Source: Neocallimastix lanati (nom. inval.) (lineage: Eukaryota; Neocallimastigomycota; Neocallimastigomycetes; Neocallimastigales; Neocallimastigaceae). Taken from it: a DNA stretch of 37,638 bases. Positions 7,767-36,633 of the stretch are shown one piece after another (position 1 is the first letter of the stretch; each line of letters starts with the position of its first letter). The notes beneath the pieces are model-generated. The model was not told the DNA's origin. It saw only the letters and a list, made by a program, of their open reading frames with translations, and ran no database searches. The stretch is taken from positions 1 through 37,638 of the forward strand of contig JACVTC010000367.1 of the NCBI GenBank assembly GCA_016946835.1. The letters are read 5' to 3'. Both the position numbers and the translations under genes were made by a program.

Positions 7767-10700
7767 ATGAGTTACATACCACAAAATCAAATGGTAAAAC
7801 CAAAGCAAAAATCATCTAACAATCTTTCTTCCTATATCAATACATATATTTCTTCTTATATTGATAACTATATAAATAATGATGAAGTGATGGAAGAAAG
7901 AAAACACCATGAAAAGAATCGTTTCAACTATTTTGGTACTCTGGATGATTATTCACCTCCACCATCTCCACCACTACAACCACCACAAAATATAGTAAAA
8001 ATAAAGGAAATGCAAAGTAACAATATAAAAGGTAAAAATATATATATAAATAATAATAAATATATTTCATAGTAAAAAAAAAAAGGCAATAAAATATTTT
8101 ATATAGAAAAATATATATGTATATATATTTATATTTAAATATAATTACAAATAATATAATATATTATAATGTTAAATGAAACTTTAGCAATAAAATAAAC
8201 TTTTTTTTTTTATTCTTTTTTTATAAAAAAATATATTAACTTTTGTTTTTCATTTTCTATGTAAATATTATTTTATTTTTTTTTATATTTTTTTTTTATA
8301 TTTTTTTCTACTATATCTACTACTATTATTACTATTACTATTATTATTTAATAGTTATTAATAAACCATCTTCTCCAATTCAAAAAGAAGAAAAATATCG
8401 TTTTAGAAGTAGTTATTATGCTAAAATTAATAATAATACTACTAATCTTGCAAAAAAAATTACAGATGAAAGTAGAACTTTAACTCCAACGTTAGCTGAA
8501 GAAGATAATTATTCAGTTGCAAATACTTGTAGAAATTCAGAAAAAACTTTATATTGTACACCAAATTTACCGGATGGTGAAAGAGATATGGCAAGTCTTG
8601 AAGATGTGGAATATTATTTGGAAAATCATCATGAAGAAATAAGGTATGATGATCCAAAATATCAAAATCAACGTTTTGGCTATAATAATCGTGATAAGGA
8701 TTCGGATTTATCCTACAAACATAATAATATAGATGTTGAAGAAGATGATTATGAATATACCAATGATTATCGTGATGATTACTATTCTTCCCATGAAACA
8801 GATAATGGATATTCTTATACAGGAAAAGCAAAAAATTTATCTAAAAATAATTTGTATAATGATTACCGAAGTGGTCAACAAGATGTTCCAAATAAAAATA
8901 TACTTTATCGCGACCGTAGAATAAGTAAAAGATCTAATGGAAAACAAACTCAAAAGATTAACAGAAATGATTCTAAAGATAATTTTAAAGATGATAATGA
9001 TAATAATAATAATAATAATATAAATAATAATAATACTAAAAACGATAATAGAGATAATAGTAATACTAAAAGTGACAATAGAGATAATAATAATACTAAA
9101 AGTGACAATAGAGATAATAATAATACTAGAATTGATAATAGAGACAGTAACAATAATGATACTAGAAATTCTTATAGAGAATACTATAAAGATAATAGCA
9201 ATAGAGATATTTACAGAGATGATTACAGAGATGATTATAGAGATAACTATAGAGATGACTATAGAGATAATTATAAAGATGATTATAGAGATGGTTATAG
9301 AGATGATTATAGAAATGATTATAGAAATGATTATAGAGACGACTATAGAGATGATTATAGAGATGATTATAAAGACGATTATAAAGATAGTTATAAAGAT
9401 GATTACAGAAGTGAGTATAGAGATAATTACAGAGATGACTATAGATATGATTACAAAGATAATTATAGGGATGACTATCACGACGACTATAAGGAAGATT
9501 TCAGAGGAAGAAAACCATACAGAGATAGTTTCAGAGAGAATTATAGAGAGAATAGTAGAAATGGATATAGTCATTCTGTTTCCGGTAGTACAAATACTTT
9601 AGAACGTGTTTCAAGCTATAGAGATAATCATAGAAATAGTCAGTTCTCCCTTGAGAGTACTAGTACCATTACTCGTATTCCAAGAAATGCTTCTTTAACT
9701 AATCGACTCAGAAGTAATTCACCCGCTAGATCAATTACAAGTTGTATATCAAATTCTACATTATCATCGAATTTACCAAGGTCAAGTAGTTTAAGATCAA
9801 GACCGATGGTTATAGTTGATGAAACTCCAAAGCAAGAGGAAAATCATGAAGTTTCTAAAAAAGGAGGTATATTTAAATTCTTTAGAAAATTAACTGGTTC
9901 CTCTTCTTCCTCTTCTTCTTCCGATAAAAATTCTAAACAAAATAAATCGAATAAAGCTAACATTACATCTCCAACTCAACAACCGGCATCTACTTCAAAC
10001 ATTATCATTAGTCCAAGTTTAAGTCAAGTTTCTTCCATCCGTTCCAATAGTATAAGACTTTCCTCTCCAATTCAACAACCACAAATTCCGCATCAAGGTC
10101 CTAATCGTACTCAGAACCCTGTACCGGCTCAACCTATTATGCCTCAAGGTTCCATTCGTATTGCTCAAAGTGCAGTACCGACAAATAGACATCATAGTCC
10201 TGTTCCCAGTTCTGTTCGTATTTCTCAAAATCCTATACAATCTCCAGTTGCTCATGCTCAAAGTCCCGTAAGAATCCCTCAAAGTCCAATGTCATCTCCT
10301 GCTAACATTACTCAAAATTCTGTAAGAGTTCCACAAAGTCCAATGCAATCCCCTGCTAACATTACTCAAAATTCTATAAGAATTCCACAAAATCCGATGC
10401 AACCACCTCCTGTTACTCGTTCTCAAAGTCCCGCTAGACTTTCACAAAGTCCAATGCAATCACCTCCTGTTACTCGTTCTCAAAGTCCCGTTAGACTTTC
10501 ACAAAGTCCAATGCAATCACCTCCTGTTAATCGTTCTCAAAGTCCCGTTAGACTTTCACAAAATCCAATGCAACAACCTCCTATTACTCGTTCTCAAAGT
10601 CCCGTTAGACTTTCACAAAATCCAATGCAACAACCTCCTATTACTCGTTCTCAAAGTCCCGTTAGACTTTCACAAAATCCAATGCAACAACCTCCTGCTA

Positions 10701-13003
10701 CTCGTTCTCAAAGCCTCGTTAGGCTTTCACAAAATCTAATGCAACAACCTCCTGTTAATGGTGTGATCCAACAAAATTCTGTAAGAATTCCACAAAGTCC
10801 AGTACAATCAATACAATCTCCTGTTCGTGCTCAAAGTCCTATCAGAGGTAAAAGCGTTATAAATCAAACAAACAATAGCAACGGCAGCAACAGTAACATC
10901 AATAATAACATCAACATTAACATCAACAACAATAATAATATTAATAGCAATAGCAATAGCAATAGTAATACAAAATCATCTTTTGTTTCTTCTTCACCTA
11001 TGACTTCTCGACAATATATAAGAGATAGTACTGTACCAAAGGCAACTGGTCTTGCGAGATCAAATAGTTATTCTACTCCAAAAAATACTTCTCAATATAC
11101 CGTTGAACCACATTATCCTACGGTAGATAGACGTAAGAATGATGATTCTATTTTATCTATGGATAAGAAAATTGATTACTTCAATCTTTACAAAACAATT
11201 AATGTAGAGGAGGAGAAAAAGAGATTAAAAAATTTAGAATTGGAAGCTGCCGCTACTATGGACACGGATAAATCAAAAAATAAAAATTTGGTGGAAAGAA
11301 AGAACAGTAATAATAGTAGCGATAATGATGATAATTTAAGAAAAACCAGAAGTATCAATGATAGAAATAAAACCTCTACCAATAATACTTTTGATGATAA
11401 AATATCAGGTTCTACTGAACATGCTTTATCTTCTTCCACTAAAAAGAATAATGGTGAAGCTAATAATACCAATGAAGAGGTCGTACATAGAAGTAGTTCC
11501 AAAGCAAGTAAAGCTAGTAAAACTAGTAAATCTAGTAAATCCATTAAATCCAGTAAATCAAATAAATCGATAAAGTCCAATAAAACTACAACCTCTAGTA
11601 AAACTACTACTTCAACTTCCATTAAAAATGCTTCTCCAATTCTATGTGGATCATCCACGATTAATGCCTCTCCAATACTTATTTCTATTGATCCAAATAC
11701 GGTGACAACTGTTAATACTATCCAAGGAAAACAAATTATTGCTTCTCCCTCTATCAAAAGTGTTAAAATTAATAGTCCATTGGTTTCCTCATCACCAACA
11801 ATTCTTTTAGCTCCAGTAATTGCTGCAACTACTACAACTACTACTACAACTACTACTACTCCTAAATCAACTAATGAAAAATCATCCTCATCACATTATT
11901 CTCCAATTCCAGTTCTTATTCCGATTCAAGCTACTACTACTACTACTACAACTATTGATGAAACTTCTATAAATCCTAAAACTTCAACAAAAGCTACTCA
12001 TTCTGACAATTTAATTAACTTTGATCCAATTGAATCACCTAAATCTACTTCTACTCATCGTCGCAGGTATTTTTCTTTCTCTAAATGTACTCACGATAAG
12101 AAGAAGAGTCATGATAACAATAAGAAAGGTAAAGTGAATCCAAATATTAGTCTTTCTAGTGCTAATCTCAAGGAAAATACAAGTAATGTTGGCGTATCTT
12201 ACCTTAGATCTAGTAAGTCAAAACCATCTTCTCCAAAGGATAATATTTTACCACAAACATCAAGTATTATTATGGATCAATTTAGTGATGATTCAGATAG
12301 TTCTGGTGGGGAGGATCACAAGGATTACAAGGTTTTCAATTGGAATTATGATGATAGCTCTGAGAGTTCATTAAATATTAATTTAATAGATCGTGTTGAT
12401 AAAGATATGGACAAAGAAAAGTATGTTCGTCGTAGTCGTAGTCAAAATCGTAATTATCGTAGTCGTAATCGTCGTAGTAGAAGTCTAAGTCGTGGACGTG
12501 GACGTGATCGTGATGGTAATCGTAATAATCGTAACTATGATGATGAATTTAAACGTAGAAGTCAAAGTCAAGGTTACAATGATGATAATGATGATGATGA
12601 TAATAATAATATTAATATTACTCGTAGTAAGAGTAGAGCTTCAAGTAGTATAAGTCGTGGACGTAGTCTTGGAAATCATGATGATAAAGATCATAGAAGT
12701 TATTCATATCAATATCAATACAATGGTTCCAATACCACAGAACAACAAACTGAAAGTATTTACACTGAAGAAACAACTCCAAATAAAATGACGGATACAT
12801 CTGCCATCATAAATTCATATAGAGGTTCCTATGTTCATCGTCATCATAAGAATCTTCCAAAGGACACTAATGAAAGTAGTAGTGGATACTATGATTCTCA
12901 AGAACGTTCAGATAAACTCAGTAGAAATAGTATTGAAATTGAAAATTATTCCTATTCACATTATGAAGATATAAATTCTGTTATTGATAGATATAAAAAA
13001 TAA
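7767..13003 (+). CDS. giant low-complexity protein, two exons (7767-8031, 8355-13003), 1637 aa
   Basis: Unrecognised protein. Exon 1 (88 codons plus one base) begins at the ATG at 7767 and ends at a GT donor at 8032. Splicing to 8355 restores the frame (G|TT = Val) and joins two hydrophilic, coding-like segments. Without splicing, exon 1 stops at 8070-8072, and an ATG at 8243 would give an implausible run of Phe/Tyr/Ile that is really the intron's pyrimidine tract. Spliced protein: Pro-rich patch near residues 64-80; acidic Tyr/Asp region; 10-residue DNRDNNNTKS-like repeats (about 315-355); an array of Tyr-Arg-Asp-Asp units (about 372-490); a basic amphipathic motif GIFKFFRKLTG before poly-Ser (about 590-611); 19-residue PMQ.PP.TRSQSPVRLSQ repeats (about 769-891); Ser-Lys repeats (about 1137-1167); Thr tracts; and two Arg-Ser-rich stretches near the C terminus (about 1446-1474, 1511-1530). 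No signal peptide, membrane segment or enzyme domain is visible. The RS dipeptides suggest phosphorylation or RNA-granule behaviour, which is inference. The gene is followed by poly-A-rich DNA. Confidence 0.85.
8032..8354 (+). other. intron of the giant low-complexity gene (phase 1, 323 bp)
   Basis: Donor GTAAAAAT at 8032; acceptor TTTAATAG ending at 8354 after a pyrimidine-rich tract (8261-8348). It is A/T-only in character and contains in-frame stops, while both flanks are hydrophilic coding sequence. Joining keeps one frame through to the stop at 13001-13003. Confidence 0.8.
9202..9565 (+). repeat. 12-bp coding repeat array: Tyr-(Arg/Lys)-Asp-(Asp/Asn) units
   Basis: About 25-30 units of a degenerate 12-base repeat (GATGATTATAGA-like) encoding YRDD, YRDN, YKDD and variants inside the giant gene. 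Changes between units keep charge and the Tyr spacing: Arg/Lys alternate and Asp/Asn alternate. Because the unit is a multiple of three, long spurious frames also appear on the opposite strand and in another frame. Confidence 0.9.
10395..10765 (+). repeat. 57-bp coding tandem repeat (19-residue Pro/Gln/Ser unit)
   Basis: Six clear copies plus a diverged seventh of a 57-base unit encoding NPMQQPPITRSQSPVRLSQ and close variants. It is preceded from about 10220 by 18-residue relatives (for example SPMQSPANITQNSIRIPQ). The central copies are nearly identical at DNA level, suggesting recent unequal exchange or slippage. Each unit has an SP step next to Arg, a plausible proline-directed phosphorylation site. 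Confidence 0.9.
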
Positions 13004-23707: not shown

Positions 23708-24454
23708 ATGACAAATCGTAATCAATTTGTAGATGAATCTAATATTGCTGATCCAGATCAAATATTATTATCTATATTCAAAACTACTGCTACTACTGTA
23801 ACTCAATTATATAAGGAATCGCTTAATCAAAGTACAAAATCATATAAAAATGGATACAAACAATGCTTATTAGACCTAATACAATTTGCCTCTTTACAAC
23901 GACATAAAAGAGATGATATTCAAAGAAATATAGTGGCGTTAACTTTTGATGAATTAACGGAGTTTTATAATACAAAACAAAGTCAAGTAAATTCAATAGA
24001 TGAAGGTTCTCAAGGTTTAAGTCATTCTTTATCAATGCCTAATGAAGAAACAAATAATAATACAAATGATAATGTATTGAATAATAATAATATAAATAAT
24101 GTTCATGAAACAAATTCACATGTAGAATTGGATAATGAAATAACAACAGAAAAGAATAATAACAATTTTAATAATATAGAAAATGAAAATATTGAAAAAC
24201 AAAATTTAACAGAAATAAAAACCAGTCTTGGTTTATCAAAAGGATTTACTTTTCGTTTTAATGATCAAATATCTTCTAATTTTAATAATATAAATTTTAT
24301 TAATAATCAAGAAAGTTTAAAAAGAAGATTAGGAGGTGTTTCAAATACAATAAACTTTTTTGGAAAAACCTTCAATTTTGATAATATAAATAATAATGAA
24401 GAGCCACCATGTAAAAGAAATAGATGGAGAAGAGATGATCGAATGACTGAATAA
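23708..24454 (+). CDS. HAPSTR1 / C16orf72-like protein (DUF4588 family), 248 aa
   Basis: Single-exon gene with ATG at 23708 (context AAAATG) and TAA at 24452-24454. Residues about 20-92 resemble the conserved core of human HAPSTR1 (C16orf72): FKTTATTVTQLYKES corresponds to FQNAATAVTNLYKES, followed by a GYKQCLLDLIQF helix equivalent to the human GIQIGYQRRNKDVLAW segment, and LTFDELTEFYNTK aligning with IRREDLISFLCGK. The extreme C terminus, PPCKRNRWRR (233-242), parallels the human ending THKRNRMI, a likely nuclear-localisation or partner-binding tail. Between lies an Asn-rich, acidic linker (about 110-165) and a short FTFRFNDQ / RRLGGVSNTINFFGKTFNF region. In animals HAPSTR1 is a nuclear stress-response regulator that oligomerises and binds the ubiquitin ligase HUWE1. 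The same role here is inference. The assignment rests on recalled family sequence, not a search. Confidence 0.72.
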   Translation: MTNRNQFVDESNIADPDQILLSIFKTTATTVTQLYKESLNQSTKSYKNGYKQCLLDLIQFASLQRHKRDDIQRNIVALTFDELTEFYNTKQSQVNSIDEGSQGLSHSLSMPNEETNNNTNDNVLNNNNINNVHETNSHVELDNEITTEKNNNNFNNIENENIEKQNLTEIKTSLGLSKGFTFRFNDQISSNFNNINFINNQESLKRRLGGVSNTINFFGKTFNFDNINNNEEPPCKRNRWRRDDRMTE

Positions 24455-24492
24455 ATCTTGCTTAAATAGTTTTTATTTATAACTATCATTAC

Positions 24493-24525
<33 letters not shown>

Positions 24526-24852
24526 TTATTTCTTTTTGTATTGTGTAATTTAATCATATATAATGTTTTGTAAAACAATTTTTTTTTTTTTCACAAGATT
24601 TTAAATTTCATTATAAATACAATAAATATAAATTTAATAAATTTTATTTAAAATATTGAAATATTGAAAATAAATAATATATATATAAGCGAAATAAAAA
24701 TTAATAATATTAATAATAAAATAAAAGAAAAATATTTATAATATAAAAATAAAAAGAATAAAATAAAAATAAAATGAATAAAAAGAACAAAAAAAAAAAA
24801 AAAAAATGAATAAATTAAATTAAAAAATGAAAAAATATACCACAATATGTAG

Positions 24853-24887
<35 letters not shown>

Positions 24888-25480
24888 TTTTTTGTTTTTT
24901 TTTTGTTTTATTTATTTGTTTGTTTGCTTGTTTGTTTGTTTGTTTTTTATTGTTATTTTTTCAATTTGTTGCTAAATAATAAAATATTCAAAATTAATAG
25001 AATTAGAAGGGAAAATAATGAAATAAAAAAAAAAATAAAAATTATAAGAGATTATAAAATATATATTAATGAGAAGTTACATGAAATGATCATTAATGCT
25101 ATTATTGAATTTTGATGCTATTTTGTTAGATGATAGTAATATATAAACAGATAATAATAAATTTTTTTTTTTTTTATATTTCATAATAAATATATTATTT
25201 ATGCCTATGTCTATGTATTATTATTATTATTATTATTATTATTTTTTTTTTTTTTAAATATATTATATATGCCTATGCCTATGTCTATGTATTATTTTTT
25301 CTTTTTTTATTTCATGATAAATATATTATTTATGCTTATATCTTTTTTTTTTTTTTTTTTTTTTATTTTTATTTTTTTTTGCTTATTTGTAATTAAAAAA
25401 ATTTATAAAATTTTGAAGTCTTGTGGTTACATTTATAAATTAATTTTTAAATGATTAAAAAATTTTTTTTTTCTACTTCT
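24455..25480. other. AT-rich spacer with microsatellites
   Basis: No gene seen. Contains poly-T (about 24496-24523, 24852-24880), a (TTTG)n tract (about 24915-24945), A-rich sequence on the strand shown, and the degenerate repeat annotated next. The open frames at 24903-25115 and 25269-25454 are simple-sequence translations. Confidence 0.65.
25183..25345. repeat. degenerate tandem repeat, unit about 65 bp, three copies
   Basis: A segment of the form (TTTCAT-ATAA)ATATATTATTTATGC-CTATGTCTATGTATTATT occurs around 25183-25225, 25257-25295 and 25310-25345, separated by T-rich or (TTA)n filler. The third copy has GCTTATATC in place of GCCTATGTC. Confidence 0.65.
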
Positions 25481-25732
25481 ATGGTTTGTACCACCTTTAT
25501 TTTCAGCTTTCTTCCTTCAAGGCGTGGAAATAATAAGATAGTCACAACACTTCCATATGCTTTTTGCATAGGCTGTAATTGTCTCTGCTGGACTGCCTTA
25601 CTGAGTGTTCAGCATTAACGCTCTGACATGTATATTGCTCCTGAGAATTTTCTAGTATGCCATGCCTTTTCTCGGAGTACTTTTCCAGTTCCTAACTTCC
25701 CTTTGAAGCAAGGCCAGTATAACTTAACCTAA
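25481..25732 (+). other. GC-rich island with near-open 84-codon frame, unknown
   Basis: An abrupt 250-bp block of about 40-45% GC (by eye) within surroundings of more than 85% AT. One + frame starts with ATG at 25481, gives 45 codons (MVCTTFIFSFLPSRRGNNKI..., including the Cys-rich CIGCNCLCW), meets TAA at 25616-25618, then continues open for 37 more codons (...NFLVCHAFSRSTFPVPNF...) to TAA at 25730-25732. The block's edges nearly coincide with the frame's edges. I recognise no domain. It may be a coding relic (transposon or transferred gene), a non-coding repeat such as an LTR fragment, or a structured RNA. It is not called as a gene. Confidence 0.4.
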
Positions 25733-26499
25733 ATGAAATATGTACTAGCATCATATAAATGACTAAAGTATATTTAATATTTACTTCATAAACCCAATTG
25801 GTCATTCTTATTAATAATAATTAATGGCTAATATGGGTAATGAATTTTTAATGAAAATTATATAAAATCAAAAAGATATATAACAATAAAATAATTATTA
25901 TCTTTAATTATATCGTATATAAATATATACTCTACCTTTATTATGGTTTATCATATGAAGATAAATCATCACAAAATATCAAAATAAAATATTTTATGAT
26001 ATTAAAATGAAATTATATAGAAGAAACTCAAAGATTTTAATTGAAATTATAATTTTTTTTATTAAATATAAGCAAAGACAAATTTAAATTTCTTTTGATA
26101 AACAAATTTTTTAATGGAAAAATTCATAAAAAACTCACAAATTACTTCAAAAATCCAAATCCAATAATTTAGGTATAACTAAAATTCAGAAAAAATTCAA
26201 ATTTAACCAATATTAAATATATCATCCATAGCTCTCACGATATATCTTATATGCTAAATAGCCCCAGTACTATTAGGAGAAATATATAATTAAGCGGTTA
26301 CGATGCGTATTACTGCAATATAAATATACTATATATATAATTTTTTCTGTCCTAAATCTTAATAACTATTATGGTAATAACCAAAAAATAATATCTAAAA
26401 AATAATAAATCTCAACGATAACAAAATAAACAAAGCATCATATGAAAATAAAACAAAAAAGGAAAGTAAAAATATGAATGTATGAATTGTGTGATATTG
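25733..26499. other. spacer, possibly upstream copia-derived sequence
   Basis: No gene seen. GC is slightly higher than elsewhere at 26230-26310 (GCTCTCACGATATATC, AGCCCCAGTACTATTAGG, GCGGTTACGATGCG), which may be an LTR or other part of the copia relic that follows, but no frame or repeat supports this directly. Confidence 0.45.
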
Positions 26500-27240
26500 A
26501 CTACTCAAGATGATCATTTGTAACGATGGGCCAACACTGATCAATTACTATATCATCTAATAGGGGATCTTTCATATATATTCAAATTGAAAGATTTAGA
26601 GAAAATTGAACAAAGGATAGACTTAAACAAAGTAATTCATACTAAAACTTTAAATTATTCACTTTATTATATATTTTGGGATTCAAATTTCGTTGATAAC
26701 AATTTTACAAGAAAATCAACTTCGGAATATATATTTACTATAGAAAGAAGTCCTATATCATGGAGATCGACAATTCAAAAAAAGTGTAATATATTCAGCA
26801 ACAAAAACCATATAAGTAAGTATAAAAAGTTATATATTCTGCTTTTGTTGTTGAATATGTTCAAAAAACGAAACAAAACAAAACAGAAGGAATTGACAAT
26901 ATACCAAACAAAAAGATTGATAATAATAAAAATTATATAAATTTACAGTAGACACAAGAAAATAAGTAATATATATATTTTGAAGAAAAGAATTAAGAGA
27001 TAATAAATAAAATTACCATATAATGTATTAAATAAGTTGATAATAATAAAAACCATGGATTTACTGTAGACACAAAAAAATAAGAAATATATATATTTTG
27101 AAGAAAAGAATTAAGAAATAATAAATAAAATTACCACATAATAAGTTGATGGAAAATCCATTAACAAAAATGCGTATCCAGAAAATTAACTATTTTCCTA
27201 GCTTTACTAAGGTGATGTATAAAATTTGAAGGAACAAAGG
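26500..27240 (+). mobile_element. decayed Ty1/copia pol 3' end (RNase H region)
   Basis: An open stretch (26587-26940) includes DSNFVDNNFTRKSTSEYIF followed by TIERSPISWRSTIQKKC, the copia RNase H signature normally written YSDADWAG-D..TRKSTSGYIF...PISW.SKKQ. Upstream, HL-RWANTDQLLYHLIGDLS (about 26510-26570) fits the H-W-A-L-R-YLKG block. Downstream, TRK-VIYIF-RKELRDNK (about 26950-27005) fits TKHIDIRYHFIRE, and MENPLTKMRIQKINYF (about 27149-27196) fits the C-terminal ADPLTK motif. Stops and frameshifts make it non-functional. The TKHI-like segment is duplicated (see the 120-bp repeat). Confidence 0.75.
26915..27145. repeat. 120-bp tandem duplication within the copia relic
   Basis: Two copies start at about 26915 and 27035 (TTGATAATAATAAAAA...), 120 bases apart and over 90% alike: both contain AGACACAA(G/A)AAAATAAG, ATATATATATTTTGAAGAA, AAGAATTAAGA and AAATAAAATTACCA. 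The second copy is about 11 bases shorter near its end, and a further unit begins with AGTTGATGG at about 27144. Confidence 0.85.
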
Positions 27241-27519
27241 TAATCGAGAACATTTTAATTAATTGATTTTATATAAGTTATCATGTTATTATTTATGACT
27301 TTTTTTCCAAATTTTATTAGTTACATATTATTTAATTAAATAATAAATGATAATAAAAGAAAAAAGAAATTACATGAATATTAATAAAAAAAAATAAAAA
27401 AAAAAAGCAATGAAAGTATTAAACTTAAAACTTTAAAAGTATTTTCAGGTAATAAAAATAAAAGGATAATAGATGAATTAAAGAATTTTTTTTTATTTTC
27501 ATTTTTTTTAGAATGGGAT
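27241..27519. other. AT-rich spacer between copia relic and GC island
   Basis: Nothing recognised. A-rich, with no open frame or repeat of note. Confidence 0.5.
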
Positions 27520-27900
27520 TAATGAGAAAATGAGAAGGGAGGATAACCCTAGGGCCTCCGGTCTCTCCCTTAAACGTATCAGACTCTTATCTTTGCCATA
27601 CCGCTTCAGAGTCGGCGTAGACCTCTCTCAAGGTAAGGCGAATATGAAAGGCATTTTCTATATGCCGGTTTATACGCCGGGCTTCGTTTTAGTGATCTCT
27701 TGAACCATCATTGAGGGAGGAATTACTACACTAAACCTTTCTTAGATCAAGTGTCTCTCTTCACTAGCAATTATATAGTCTAGTATTAGGAATACTTACT
27801 ATGGTGAGAGAATCCCAACTTCATTTATAGGGAAAAACATCCTTAGGAGGATGAATATCGTCCAATACAAATTCAGGAGGTAATCACGGGATCTATCCAG
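27520..27900. other. 380-bp GC-rich island with 57-codon ORF, unknown
   Basis: A sharply bounded block of about 43-48% GC (by eye) flanked by near-pure A/T. On the + strand an ATG at 27530 opens a 57-aa basic frame, MRREDNPRASGLSLKRIRLL..., with TGA at 27701-27703. After this stop the same frame continues with further stops, so the island is not one gene. Its beginning (ACCCTAGGGCCTCCGGTCTCTC) vaguely resembles the GC pocket upstream of the LINE (ACCTAGGCCAAAGGCCTCTC at 14222). It may be a transposable-element untranslated region or LTR, or a structured RNA. No tRNA, snRNA or rRNA signature was recognised. Confidence 0.4.
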
Positions 27901-28050
27901 TTTATCTTCAATGATATTAAAATAAGAATTAATTTATTTTAATAAAATTTACCCTAAATTTAAAATTTTATTATTTAAGTAAAATTATTTTTAAATAAAA
28001 ATGAATATATTTAGATAATATGCTTATTTAAATATATTCGCAAAAAAAAA

Positions 28051-28083
<33 letters not shown>

Positions 28084-28449
28084 AAATAAAATAAAATCAA
28101 TAAAATCCTTTTATTAATTAACTTTAAAAATTATAATACATAAATATATTATTGATTTATAGTTTTGTTTTATCATATTTTATTAAATAAGAATCTCAAA
28201 ATATTCATATTTAAAAAATATATATATAAGCTAAAAATAAATAAAATTTATAGACCATAATAGATGGATGGAACAATTAGAGAGAGTTATATTTATAAAG
28301 TAAATAATTAATTAAATGATTTAAAATATATATTTATGAACTATTTATTCATTATTTTCTAATTTTTTTTTTTTTTTTTTTTTTATTTTTTATTTAGAGT
28401 TATTGTACTTTTTTCTTTTTCTTTACATTGACAATAATAATAATAAGAA
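27901..28449. promoter_or_regulatory. upstream region of the lysin gene
   Basis: AT-rich, with a poly-A tract (about 28040-28080), AGTTATATTTATAAA (28286-28300; a TATA-like box 150 bp before the ATG), a poly-T tract (about 28364-28383) and a pyrimidine-rich segment (TTTTTTCTTTTTCTTTACATTG) ending about 20 bases before ATG. This is where the promoter should lie. No specific factor site is identified. Confidence 0.4.
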
Positions 28450-29526
28450 ATGAATTATTATCCAAAATATTTATATCAAGGAACTATTAATTTATTATTC
28501 CTATTCATTTCTTTTGTTTCTTCTTACACTCTTTTAAAGCAGGGAAGTTCTGGAACAAATGTTAAAAATATTCAATTACGATTATTAGAGTTAGGTTATT
28601 CCTGTGGTCCAGAAGGAGCCAGTGGAAACTATGATCGAGGTACTACCTTTGCGGTATATGCCTTCCAACAAGTAAATAATATAGGAAAAACTGGAATAGC
28701 TGATAAAAATACTCAAACACTTCTTTTTAATAAATATGCCAAAAAAAATAATGTAAATGGTGAGGAAACTTTGGCTGTTTTCAAAGCTAATATAACTACT
28801 TTATCTCAAGGAGATATAGGTAGTCTGGTAGAACGAACTCAAGTTCGTTTATCACTTTTAGGTTATGATTGTGGAAAAATAGATGGTTATTTTGGAAATA
28901 AAACGGTAACTTGTGTTCAAGCTTTCCAACAAAAAAATAAGCTCCCCGTTCTTAAATCTCTTGATGAAACTACCTATAAAAAACTATTTTATCGTCAAGC
29001 CATTCCTAACTTCCCAGAAAATTTACCATTACCTAATGAAGATATTATTCATTTTGTTAATATTGCGTTAGGTGAATATAGTTATAAACCTCTCTACCCA
29101 AAGGGTAATAATTTTTCTAAATTCGGAGCTTGGTACGGTACAAATCCTGCACCTTGGTGTTGTATTTTCGTATCCTGGGTAGCTAATGAAAACCAAAGTG
29201 TTAGCAAACATTTACTTCTTGAAGAGGCATCTGTTGACGCCGTCAAAGAATCTTACATTAAAGCAGGCCGTTTCGTTCCAAAGGGTGATTATCGTCCAGA
29301 ATATGGTGATTTAATTTTCTTTAAATATTTATTAGGTCATATTGGTATTGTTGTTGGAACCGATGATAAATATGTCTATACTATTGAAGGAAATTCACAT
29401 AATCAAGCTAGAACAGTTAAGCGTATGGTATCCTATCGTAATTTTCCTTTAAACTATCCCAGTATTATGGGTTATGGTCGTAACTATAGTGGTCATCCAG
29501 GTTATGCTATGCCTCTTAAAAATTAA
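28450..29526 (+). CDS. secreted peptidoglycan hydrolase: two PG_binding_1 domains plus CHAP-type Cys-His peptidase, 358 aa
   Basis: Intronless gene with ATG at 28450 and TAA at 29524-29526. The N terminus has a hydrophobic stretch (residues about 12-25, INLLFLFISFVSS), read as a secretion signal. Two peptidoglycan-binding repeats follow: about 30-95 (VKNIQLRLLELGYSCG...TFAVYAFQQ..) and about 118-180 (RTQVRLSLLGYDCGKIDGYFG...CVQAFQQ). Residues about 197-325 form a CHAP/NlpC-P60-like amidase-endopeptidase: APWCCIFVSW holds the probable nucleophile Cys237 (with Cys238 adjacent), GHIGIVVG gives His297, and the third polar residue is in IEGNS (Glu313 or Asn315). Such proteins cleave peptide bonds or the amide link of bacterial cell walls. 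The fungal wall has no peptidoglycan, so an extracellular antibacterial or bacterial-digestion role is inferred. The architecture is typical of Firmicutes lysins and suggests horizontal transfer, followed by codon adaptation to AT-rich host usage. The C-terminal 15 residues are unassigned. Confidence 0.88.
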   Translation: MNYYPKYLYQGTINLLFLFISFVSSYTLLKQGSSGTNVKNIQLRLLELGYSCGPEGASGNYDRGTTFAVYAFQQVNNIGKTGIADKNTQTLLFNKYAKKNNVNGEETLAVFKANITTLSQGDIGSLVERTQVRLSLLGYDCGKIDGYFGNKTVTCVQAFQQKNKLPVLKSLDETTYKKLFYRQAIPNFPENLPLPNEDIIHFVNIALGEYSYKPLYPKGNNFSKFGAWYGTNPAPWCCIFVSWVANENQSVSKHLLLEEASVDAVKESYIKAGRFVPKGDYRPEYGDLIFFKYLLGHIGIVVGTDDKYVYTIEGNSHNQARTVKRMVSYRNFPLNYPSIMGYGRNYSGHPGYAMPLKN

Positions 29527-30416
29527 AATAAAAATAAAAATTAAGCAATAATTATTATTAAAAGATCATTATAAAATATATTAAATATAATATTAATAAT
29601 ATGAGAAAAAAAATTAATTATCATCTTATTTAATTATGTAAATATTATTCTATTTATTTGAAAATAAATGTTAATTTTTTTTTTTTTTTTGTTATTTATA
29701 ATATCATAATAGAAATATATGTAATTTAATTTAACAAATTTAAAAAAATAATAAAAAAATTTTTTTTTTCGTACAAAATTTATTAAATTTTATTGTAGTT
29801 TCTACAAATACATTACAATTACATAATGAAATGTATCTGAAGAAAATTTTTAAATATATGTACGTTAATAAAAATACAATGATTTATAATTCAATTATTA
29901 AAAAATAATTAAAAAAAAAAAAAAATTATTAAAAGCAATTTTTTTTTATTTCTTTTGGATTGATCATAATTATGTTAATCGTTTAAAATAGATAGTTCAT
30001 AAATATACAATACAATTAAATATTAAAAAAAAAAATATATGAATAAATAATTTATAAATATCATAAATATATAATATAATTAATATTAAAAAAAATTATA
30101 TGTAAAATAAATAATTTATAAATATCATAAATATATAACATAATTAAATATTAAAAAAAATATATATATGTAAAATATAAATATATAAAAAAATATACCA
30201 AAAATAGATAGTTATAAATATATAATTTAATATTAATATAAAATATTTATCTAAATTATTTTATTATATTGAATCTGTACTTTATTCTAACATTTACTTT
30301 TAGTTTATAACATTTAATTAAATATTAAAGTAGAATATTAAAAATAAAATAATATTAATATAGTAATAATTAAAAAAAATTGAAAATTTTATTTTTTTAA
30401 TTAAGAGAGGGGTTTT
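29527..30416. other. AT-rich spacer downstream of the lysin gene
   Basis: No gene seen. Contains repeated AAATATATAA-TATAATTAA-TATTAAAAAAAA blocks (about 30000-30190, roughly 65-bp period, three degenerate copies) and homopolymers. Confidence 0.6.
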
Positions 30417-31270
30417 ATAATGTTGATACCAACGAAAAAAACCTTAATGATAATAATTTTTAATTGAACGGGTGGTTTATTCAGAGAACACTCATATTAT
30501 TGTTAGTAATCCTGAAATATTGGAAAATAAAAAAATTAAAAAGTACTATTATTAATTTTCTTAATAACAAAATAAATAATCCAAATATTTCTAGTAAATT
30601 AAAAATAAAAATAAAAATTGGACCAGAAATATTAAACATAGATGAGGTAATATTATTCAAGAATGGTCTATATGTTGATGACATGGTTATTATAGGTATT
30701 AATGATAATATTCAAAATACAATTAGAAAAATTAAGAAATTATACACTATTTCTAAAGTAGAAGAAATTGATAGTATATTAAGTATAAAAATCATAAAAA
30801 CAAACCAGTGTGAATATACTATGAACTAATCCAAATATTTATTAACTAAATTAAAAGAATATAATATTGCGTAAGAAAAAAGCAATTATTCAGATATAAC
30901 AAACTATGATAAGAATAAACCTGAAATAGATCCTAATAAGTACAGATCAGCTATATAGGGTCTTTAATCCACTTAGCAAGATGTACAAGACCAATATATC
31001 AGTGAAACAATAAGCTAATTATCCATGAAAAGAAATAATCCAACTATCAAAGACTTGGAAAATGGTATTAAATGTTCTAAAGCAATTAAATAAAGCAAAA
31101 ATTTTATTTCTTAAAATTTGATAATAAAGAGGACATTGTTGCATATTCAGAGACAAGTTTTGGACTAAAGTATGATGAGAATAATTCAACATCAACCCCT
31201 GGATATATAATATATATAGGATGTGCTACCGTTTGTTGGAAATCAAAAAAAAATATTAATACTAAAACAA
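30417..31270 (+). mobile_element. decayed Ty1/copia pol: RT with YVDD, then RNase H
   Basis: The open stretch 30464-30829 contains VILFKNGLYVDDMVIIGIND, with the reverse-transcriptase catalytic motif YVDD intact at 30671-30682, followed by IDSILSIKI and, after ATGAACTAA, the N-Q/-SKYLLTKLKEYN segment typical of copia RT. Further on, across stops and frameshifts: PEIDPNKYRSAI (about 30920-30955; the PYRSAIG block), NNPTIKDLENGIKC (about 31034-31076) and YSETSFGLKYDENNSTSTPGY (about 31143-31205) then IGCATVCWKSKKN, equivalent to SDADWAGD...STSGY...ISWKSKKQ. It is a dead fragment with stops at several points. It is more complete than the copia relic at 26500-27240 but diverged from it, so the two are separate insertions or families. 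Confidence 0.78.
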
Positions 31271-35857
<4,587 letters not shown>

Positions 35858-36633
35858 AGTCAAAAATACAATAATTCGAAATTATAAATCATTGTATTAT
35901 TATATAATATTCTATAAATATTATCTATATAAACATTAAAACAGAACAATAAAACAAAACAAAAAAAATTATATTTATATAAATATATATATGTATAAAA
36001 ATAATAGTAATAATAGCAATTCACTTCATAGTAAAATAAGAATTTTATAATTAAATTTAAATTATTATAAAATGATATAATAAAAAAAAAAAAAAAAATG
36101 CAATTAAAATTAAATAAAAATAAATAATAAATCATAAAAAATAATAATAATAATTTGAGTGAATATTTATATTTGATATCTTCTTAATTGTTTATATTTA
36201 TAAAATATTTTATATAGTATATATCAAACAAATGTCAAAAAACGTTTATATATATATATATATATATTTGTAGAAAATAGTTATATATATATATAATTAT
36301 GATGAATATAATTCCAAAAGTCTCTAATGAAATAGATAAAAAATAAACAATAAAGTATTTATTTCTAACATTTATTAATTTATTATATATTATTCAATAA
36401 TCAATATAATTTTTTTTTTTTTTTTATTAATATTAAATTAAAACTGATACGAGATCCAAAATTTATTATATTTATTTTATTTATTACTTTATCTAATTCG
36501 AATATTTGATTATTTGAGTTTTATAAGACATATAAATTATTATTAATAATTTAATATTCTATAAATAATTTTAATTAATAACAAAAAAAAAAAAAAATAG
36601 GAAAAAAAAAAAAGGAAAAACCTTTGCAGTTTC

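Follow-up and report, generated by a model that had tools for sequence, protein, structure and literature searches.

The window analysed here (37,638 bases; the whole of contig C298, 1-37638, in the 199,045,447-base, 762-contig assembly of the anaerobic fungus Neocallimastix lanati) carries a gene for a PGB-PGB-CHAP lysin, a protein with two peptidoglycan-binding (PGB) domains followed by a CHAP domain. From the predicted protein we consider it likely that the fungus secretes it as a peptidoglycan hydrolase against bacteria in its vicinity, for feeding, for killing or for both. The gene looks to have been acquired horizontally, to be old in these fungi and to have been adapted since. The gene and its parts are as follows.

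28450..29526, + strand: PGB-PGB-CHAP lysin gene, one uninterrupted, intron-free frame of 358 codons (358 amino acids)
28450..28524, + strand: putative signal peptide, residues 1-25, judged by eye from the translation
28549..28725, + strand: first PG_binding_1 domain (PGB1), residues 34-92, Pfam
28819..28986, + strand: second PG_binding_1 domain (PGB2), residues 124-179, with Cys141 and Cys155, profile match
29143..29394, + strand: CHAP domain, Pfam core residues 232-315; the structural domain spans about 196-348 from the fold
29158..29160, + strand: Cys237, presumed catalytic nucleophile, invariant in 11/11, 8/8 and 24/24 sequences
29338..29340, + strand: His297, presumed catalytic, invariant in 11/11, 8/8 and 24/24 sequences
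29386..29394, + strand: Glu313-Gly314-Asn315, with Glu and Asn the presumed third and fourth active-site residues, invariant in 11/11 and 24/24 sequences

A frame of 358 amino acids lies far above chance: when the window was shuffled 60 times under a first-order Markov model, no ATG frame exceeded 114 amino acids. The intronless gene proposed at these coordinates by a first-pass annotation is borne out. That annotation had also named two peptidoglycan-binding domains and a Cys-His peptidase, and both Pfam families are indeed over threshold: PG_binding_1 matches two stretches of the lysin (E 7e-25) and CHAP (PF05257) matches with E 1.5e-8 and 35.5 bits (cut-off 26). The two PG_binding_1 domains thus provide a wall-binding module whose binding to the wall is predicted, and the PHROGs families matching the CHAP part carry the annotation endolysin. 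At the start of the protein, residues 14-24 are hydrophobic and are followed by VSS-Y (by eye). We take the Cys, His, Glu and Asn listed above to be catalytic by analogy with CHAP endolysins.

The gene probably came to an ancestral anaerobic gut fungus from Bacillota (Lachnospiraceae or relatives) or from a prophage of that lineage. Its product would leave through the secretory pathway, where the leader would be cleaved, and the two PGB domains would hold it on bacterial wall material. There the CHAP domain, with Cys237-His297-Glu313/Asn315 as its active site, would cut the peptide part of peptidoglycan, acting as an amidase or as an endopeptidase, which the sequence does not distinguish. Nearby Gram-positive-type bacteria would be lysed or weakened, and the fungus would gain by killing competitors, by feeding on them, or by both. 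From its anatomy, use of the protein against rumen bacteria is plausible. A mainly nutritional role, in which the enzyme digests dead bacterial walls as food rather than competing, draws support from the several wall-hydrolase types in the genome (below) and from the general way of life of anaerobic fungi, which degrade polymers with secreted enzymes. Nothing was found to tell feeding from killing, and we regard this role, taken alone, as somewhat unlikely.

A protein search with the lysin gave 225 proteins at E ≤1e-3, of which 120 were listed; the lysin's own protein cluster holds 5 sequences and 33 contigs. The closest full-length proteins among the matches listed are P0002 from Anaeromyces robustus and P0003 (JGI), with 46% identity and query coverage of 92% and 95%, respectively. 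A profile of the lysin and these two matched 859 proteins, of which 120 were listed, out of 7,993 candidates that were scored, and added P0121 (45% over 93%) and P0133 from Piromyces sp. E2 (32% over 96%). All four have the PGB-PGB-CHAP order, P0003 and P0121 being counted as fungal from their tree position. Two PGB domains are kept in the Neocallimastix lysin, P0002, P0003 and P0121, and P0133 has two PGB-like stretches. By eye, a hydrophobic leader is present in all five fungal-type proteins and is followed in P0002, P0121 and P0133 by EKR, a Kex2-like site. No phage record covers 80% of the query among the 25 matches listed (30 records with a match).

The CHAP tree drew on 230 proteins together with 80 of 341 bacterial or archaeal relatives and 80 of at least 555 viral-contig relatives. 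Their 340 CHAP domains were reduced to 152 by clustering and to 87 rows for the tree (5 fungal-type rows, the 70 nearest ones and 12 picked at random); a full-length alignment including bacterial CHAP-first proteins misaligned the CHAP domain and was discarded. In the 87-row tree the five fungal-type proteins form one clade (support 100/97, recovered in 100% of 200 bootstrap trees) nested among bacterial sequences. Its sister (95/82) is L031, a PGB-CHAP protein from a Lachnospiraceae bin. One step further out, a group (92/85 with the fungal clade and L031) consists of Clostridia, Paenibacillus and unnamed rows, and the remaining rows are Bacillota, unnamed, viral contigs and two labelled Mycoplasmatota. 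We infer a source lineage in Lachnospiraceae or relatives. A phage-type holin (PF05105, E 1e-21) is encoded on the opposite strand about 1.3 kb from the L031 gene, so a prophage source is possible; L031:1-414 and 432-1010 (− strand) hold the phage-type holin and a sigma-factor-like frame (by eye, no Pfam match). The first-pass annotation had proposed horizontal acquisition and a CHAP search and phylogeny as its check: the fungal-type clade does fall among Bacillota rows, and this placement, the L031 neighbour and the exclusion of contamination (below) together support the proposal.

We favour a single transfer into these fungi, which is unproven because approximately unbiased (AU) tests leave alternatives unrejected. 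Placing P0001 (the lysin) with L031 alone costs 29.0 log units (p-AU 0.126) and placing P0133 with P0063 costs 27.3 log units (p-AU 0.174). Further reservations are the long branch of P0133, a root set at the midpoint for drawing, and a PGB tree (below) in which no supported set joins the L031 domain to fungal domains. Different anaerobic fungi might instead have received similar bacterial genes independently, which would be compatible with a hydrolase function; the AU tests leave room for this, and independent acquisitions of homologous genes are reported for the phylum (PMC11291939). The recovery of one clade in every bootstrap tree, together with the common domain order and the second PGB cysteine described below, nevertheless makes separate transfers unlikely.

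The presence of the gene in related gut fungi suggests that its acquisition from gut bacteria is old. It does not look recent or private to this genome, because of the five-protein clade and because its GC content at third codon positions (GC3) of 0.168 (17%) is near the 0.154 (15%) of a 1586-amino-acid frame in the window; overall GC is 0.323 in the lysin frame and 0.11 in the 500 bases on each side. The lack of introns, which had been taken earlier to fit transfer, does so as weak evidence, because transferred genes in Neocallimastigomycota tend towards few introns, if any, according to the same source (PMC11291939).

The predicted structure has the NlpC/P60-CHAP fold; the model used was built from 24 alignment rows and replaced an earlier one (8 rows, pLDDT 65). 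The CHAP and NlpC/P60 folds include amidases that act on substrates other than walls, and the Foldseek matches include Gsp amidase and trypanothione synthetase. These matches would also be consistent with a gene acquired long ago whose CHAP product no longer acts on bacteria but, as an amidase or peptidase like the glutathionylspermidine/trypanothione amidases, on a substrate of fungal or plant origin or on a small molecule; we judge this quite improbable in view of the PGB domains retained across the homologues (PGB-like stretches in P0133), the secretory-looking leader and the endolysin annotation of the CHAP-matching families. Several points do count against the reading as a wall hydrolase. 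Foldseek E-values of the final model against CHAP or NlpC/P60 chains exceed 0.01; Glu313 is variable in the 8-row alignment, where Gly314 and Asn315 are invariant; one stretch only of P0133 reaches the PG_binding_1 threshold; and, beside an identical second copy, the 9 matches to the lysin in its own genome include none to the CHAP part. Because those matches miss it, there is no expanded family in the genome. A search of the genome with the Pfam CHAP model returned 0 candidates, missing this known gene too (4 of 14 control genomes matched), and is uninformative on CHAP copy number.

The second copy of the lysin, with 100% protein identity, lies at G000:C50:207850-208923 in a contig of 462,500 bases. 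Window positions 24007-33902 align to C50 in 9,907 columns that contain 12 gaps but no mismatch (99.8%), a stretch that in C50 includes the first exon of the thioredoxin-reductase-like gene described below, and window segments 31500-33400 and 8300-13000 are likewise present there. With 9.9 kb free of mismatches the two were rejected as paralogous genes, and we take C298 to be a redundant or haplotype contig of the C50 locus. The lysin gene is therefore part of a eukaryotic genome. That the assembly was contaminated with bacterial or phage DNA, as a bacterial-type protein from an intron-free gene might suggest, is ruled out for practical purposes by the recurrence of the locus with its thioredoxin-reductase-like exon inside a 462-kb contig, by a GC3 of 0.17 and flanks of 11% GC, and by full-length homologues of 46-48% identity, one of them from Anaeromyces; the earlier view that contamination was unlikely has held.

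Evidence for adaptation comes from the PGB domains. Of 420 found in the proteins fetched, we scored those in which both cysteine positions were readable by one pattern. Both cysteines are present in 10 of 11 domains of fungal lysin or surface type. None of the 338 other domains, most of which come from bacterial or unnamed proteins, has the pair, and neither does any of the 4 domains of a protein encoded on contig C588. The gene looks adapted because the second cysteine is absent from these 338 other scorable domains, and the paired cysteines may form a disulphide. Against this, PGB1 of the present lysin is the sole scored fungal domain without the second cysteine. The two domains of P0133 were unreadable by the pattern, and by eye both hold the pair.

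PG_binding_1 occurs at six places in the genome (the lysin, its C50 copy, C401, C468, C577 and C588), in 11 stretches. Three of these encode PGB proteins akin to the lysin PGB2, each with a leader (by eye) and one PGB domain.

L023:4527-5459 (G000:C468): PGB protein akin to lysin PGB2
L024:4647-5588 (G000:C577): PGB protein akin to lysin PGB2
L021:4686-5495 (G000:C401): PGB protein akin to lysin PGB2

In a tree of 80 PGB domains, which has 63 columns only and an unsettled bootstrap, PGB2 of the five fungal-type lysins and the PGB domains of C401, C468 and C577 form one clade (99/91), and the first PGB domains form a separate clade (98/99). PGB1 and PGB2 share no fungal group: the smallest set with all 13 domains of fungal lysin and surface type takes in 51 of the 80 rows with support 12/38, and for lack of a single fungal group neither duplication inside fungi nor transfer of both repeats could be shown. 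The grouping of the lysin PGB2 with three other fungal proteins in which Pfam recognised no catalytic domain is the most unusual result of this work. All three have a Cys-containing C-terminal part of no recognised fold, which in C468 and C577 closes with a hydrophobic segment (by eye). Between these two proteins the PGB domain is 95% identical, and a dN of 0.027 against a dS of 0.190 over 310 codons suggests constraint. Conceivably, the PGB domain of a captured lysin became a wall-recognition domain that is stabilised by a disulphide and fits the secretory pathway, and was re-used on the surface- or secreted-type proteins of C401, C468 and C577, which with the lysin and the GH24, GH73 and NlpC/P60 proteins below would make up a system for capturing and attacking rumen bacteria; we offer this as a long shot.

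In their C-terminal parts, C468 and C577 also match Lactococcin_972 below threshold (15.1 bits, cut-off 22). A link to lactococcin-972-like bacteriocins, as reported in PMC8106346, was considered and is not shown, the match being below the cut-off; a search of the genome with the Lactococcin_972 model found four places, C468 and C577 not among them. Those four (G000:C566, C323, C24 and C747) are borderline matches of 21.8-27 bits.

Among known systems, the nearest in layout are bacterial and phage PG_binding_1-CHAP hydrolases (endolysins and autolysins, for example L031), which have the same order of PGB then CHAP, a similar C-terminal GYGKN..GY segment and the same active-site residues (by eye). 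To this plan the fungal lysin adds a secretory-type leader, a second PGB domain and, in most PGB domains, a second cysteine; none of the neighbouring frames tested is a holin, and the gene sits in a eukaryotic genome. In Neocallimastix californiae, GH73+NlpC/P60 and GH25+M15 proteins with cysteine-rich repeats were reported in 2020 as transferred genes (PMC7379824); they share with the lysin the genus, a presumed bacterial origin and wall-acting domains. The PGB-PGB-CHAP protein differs in its catalytic family and in lacking a chitin-binding module and cysteine-rich repeats beside the catalytic domain, with only five cysteines in 358 residues. NlpC/P60 hydrolases of transferred origin in Trichomonas have been demonstrated to degrade peptidoglycan (PMC6299479); those are not CHAP enzymes, and the lysin is known from its sequence. 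Acquired bacterial-type wall enzymes are likewise reported in other lineages, a CHAP family in the oomycete Saprolegnia (PMC3681718; likened by description only) and, with other chemistry, a GH25 lysozyme acquired from bacteria in Dikarya and others (PMC4241558).

That eukaryotes have acquired wall hydrolases from bacteria is thus already established, and other wall-hydrolase families are in print for Neocallimastix (PMC7379824); the addition here is CHAP with PGB in anaerobic fungi, a CHAP case with signs of secretory-pathway adaptation. Our literature search, which covered mostly open-access text with supplements outside its scope, found no report of a PGB-CHAP or CHAP lysin in these fungi. 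Anaerobic fungi are outnumbered by bacteria in their habitat. Retained in several genera, a protein of the lysin type would amount to a direct and testable protein weapon, and also to a source of enzymes tuned to rumen bacteria. Published discussion of how anaerobic fungi antagonise bacteria has invoked natural products and putative bacteriocins (PMC8406330, PMC8106346).

Other candidate wall enzymes of the genome include the following.

L197:3498-5474 (G000:C522, ~331.5-333.5 kb): GH24 phage-type lysozyme + chitin-binding + NlpC/P60, one intronless 658-amino-acid frame
L200:2084-4006 (G000:C710, ~328.6-330.5 kb): GH73 glucosaminidase + chitin-binding + NlpC/P60, 640 amino acids
L022:4361-5305, − strand (G000:C588, ~194.6-198.3 kb with the next): frame with four PGB domains
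L022:7477-8085, + strand: phage-tail-lysozyme (PF18013) frame

The C710 protein has the GH73 and NlpC/P60 domain pair of N. californiae, a likeness by domains alone (PMC7379824). P0233, a GH24-type protein of 658 amino acids, matches the C710 frame with 52% identity and 100% coverage, and the N-terminal catalytic module of C522 and C710 looks to have been swapped on a common scaffold. By eye, Cys-rich stretches are present in L197, L198 and L200, and the C522 frame has, beside its own, a leader and a hydrophobic end. C38 encodes NlpC/P60 twice, the second copy's frame lacking an ATG. The two C588 frames are divergent, about 2.2 kb apart and without an obvious leader; P0159 combines the phage-tail-lysozyme and PGB domain types with CHAP in one chain.

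Three further features flank the lysin gene in the window.

27505..27930, no strand assigned: dispersed repeat of ~400 bp upstream of the lysin gene, from a genome search
30464..30826, + strand: weak copia-type reverse transcriptase relic (RVT_2, E 0.0046, 17 bits, below the cut-off of 31.6)
33450..35860, + strand: thioredoxin-reductase-like gene of about eight exons, 3' end approximate, from Pfam on two blocks and frames by eye

Reading 33400-36300 in three frames by eye gives eight coding blocks that look like exons, with room for about seven introns, in agreement with the first-pass count for this gene. Of the two blocks run against Pfam, 34961-35293 matches Pyr_redox with 58.2 bits, well above the cut-off, and 33450-33848 matches Pyr_redox_2 with 25.0 bits, slightly below the cut-off of 26.1. 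The copia relics proposed on both sides of the lysin gene are borne out in part: the sub-threshold RVT_2 match lies downstream, and frames 26524-26937 and 31090-31299 have no Pfam match. Pfam found no holin in the 8 window frames tested, and thus no phage lysis cassette, and an Rfam scan of the window gave 0 matches at gathering score. The low-complexity 1586-amino-acid frame at 8243-13003 (+ strand) has no Pfam match and contains long DDYRD-type repeats. The repeat at 27505-27930 recurs in at least 38 further places, the window and its C50 copy not counted, at 73-81% identity (40 of 558 candidates scored), and is GC-richer than its surroundings.
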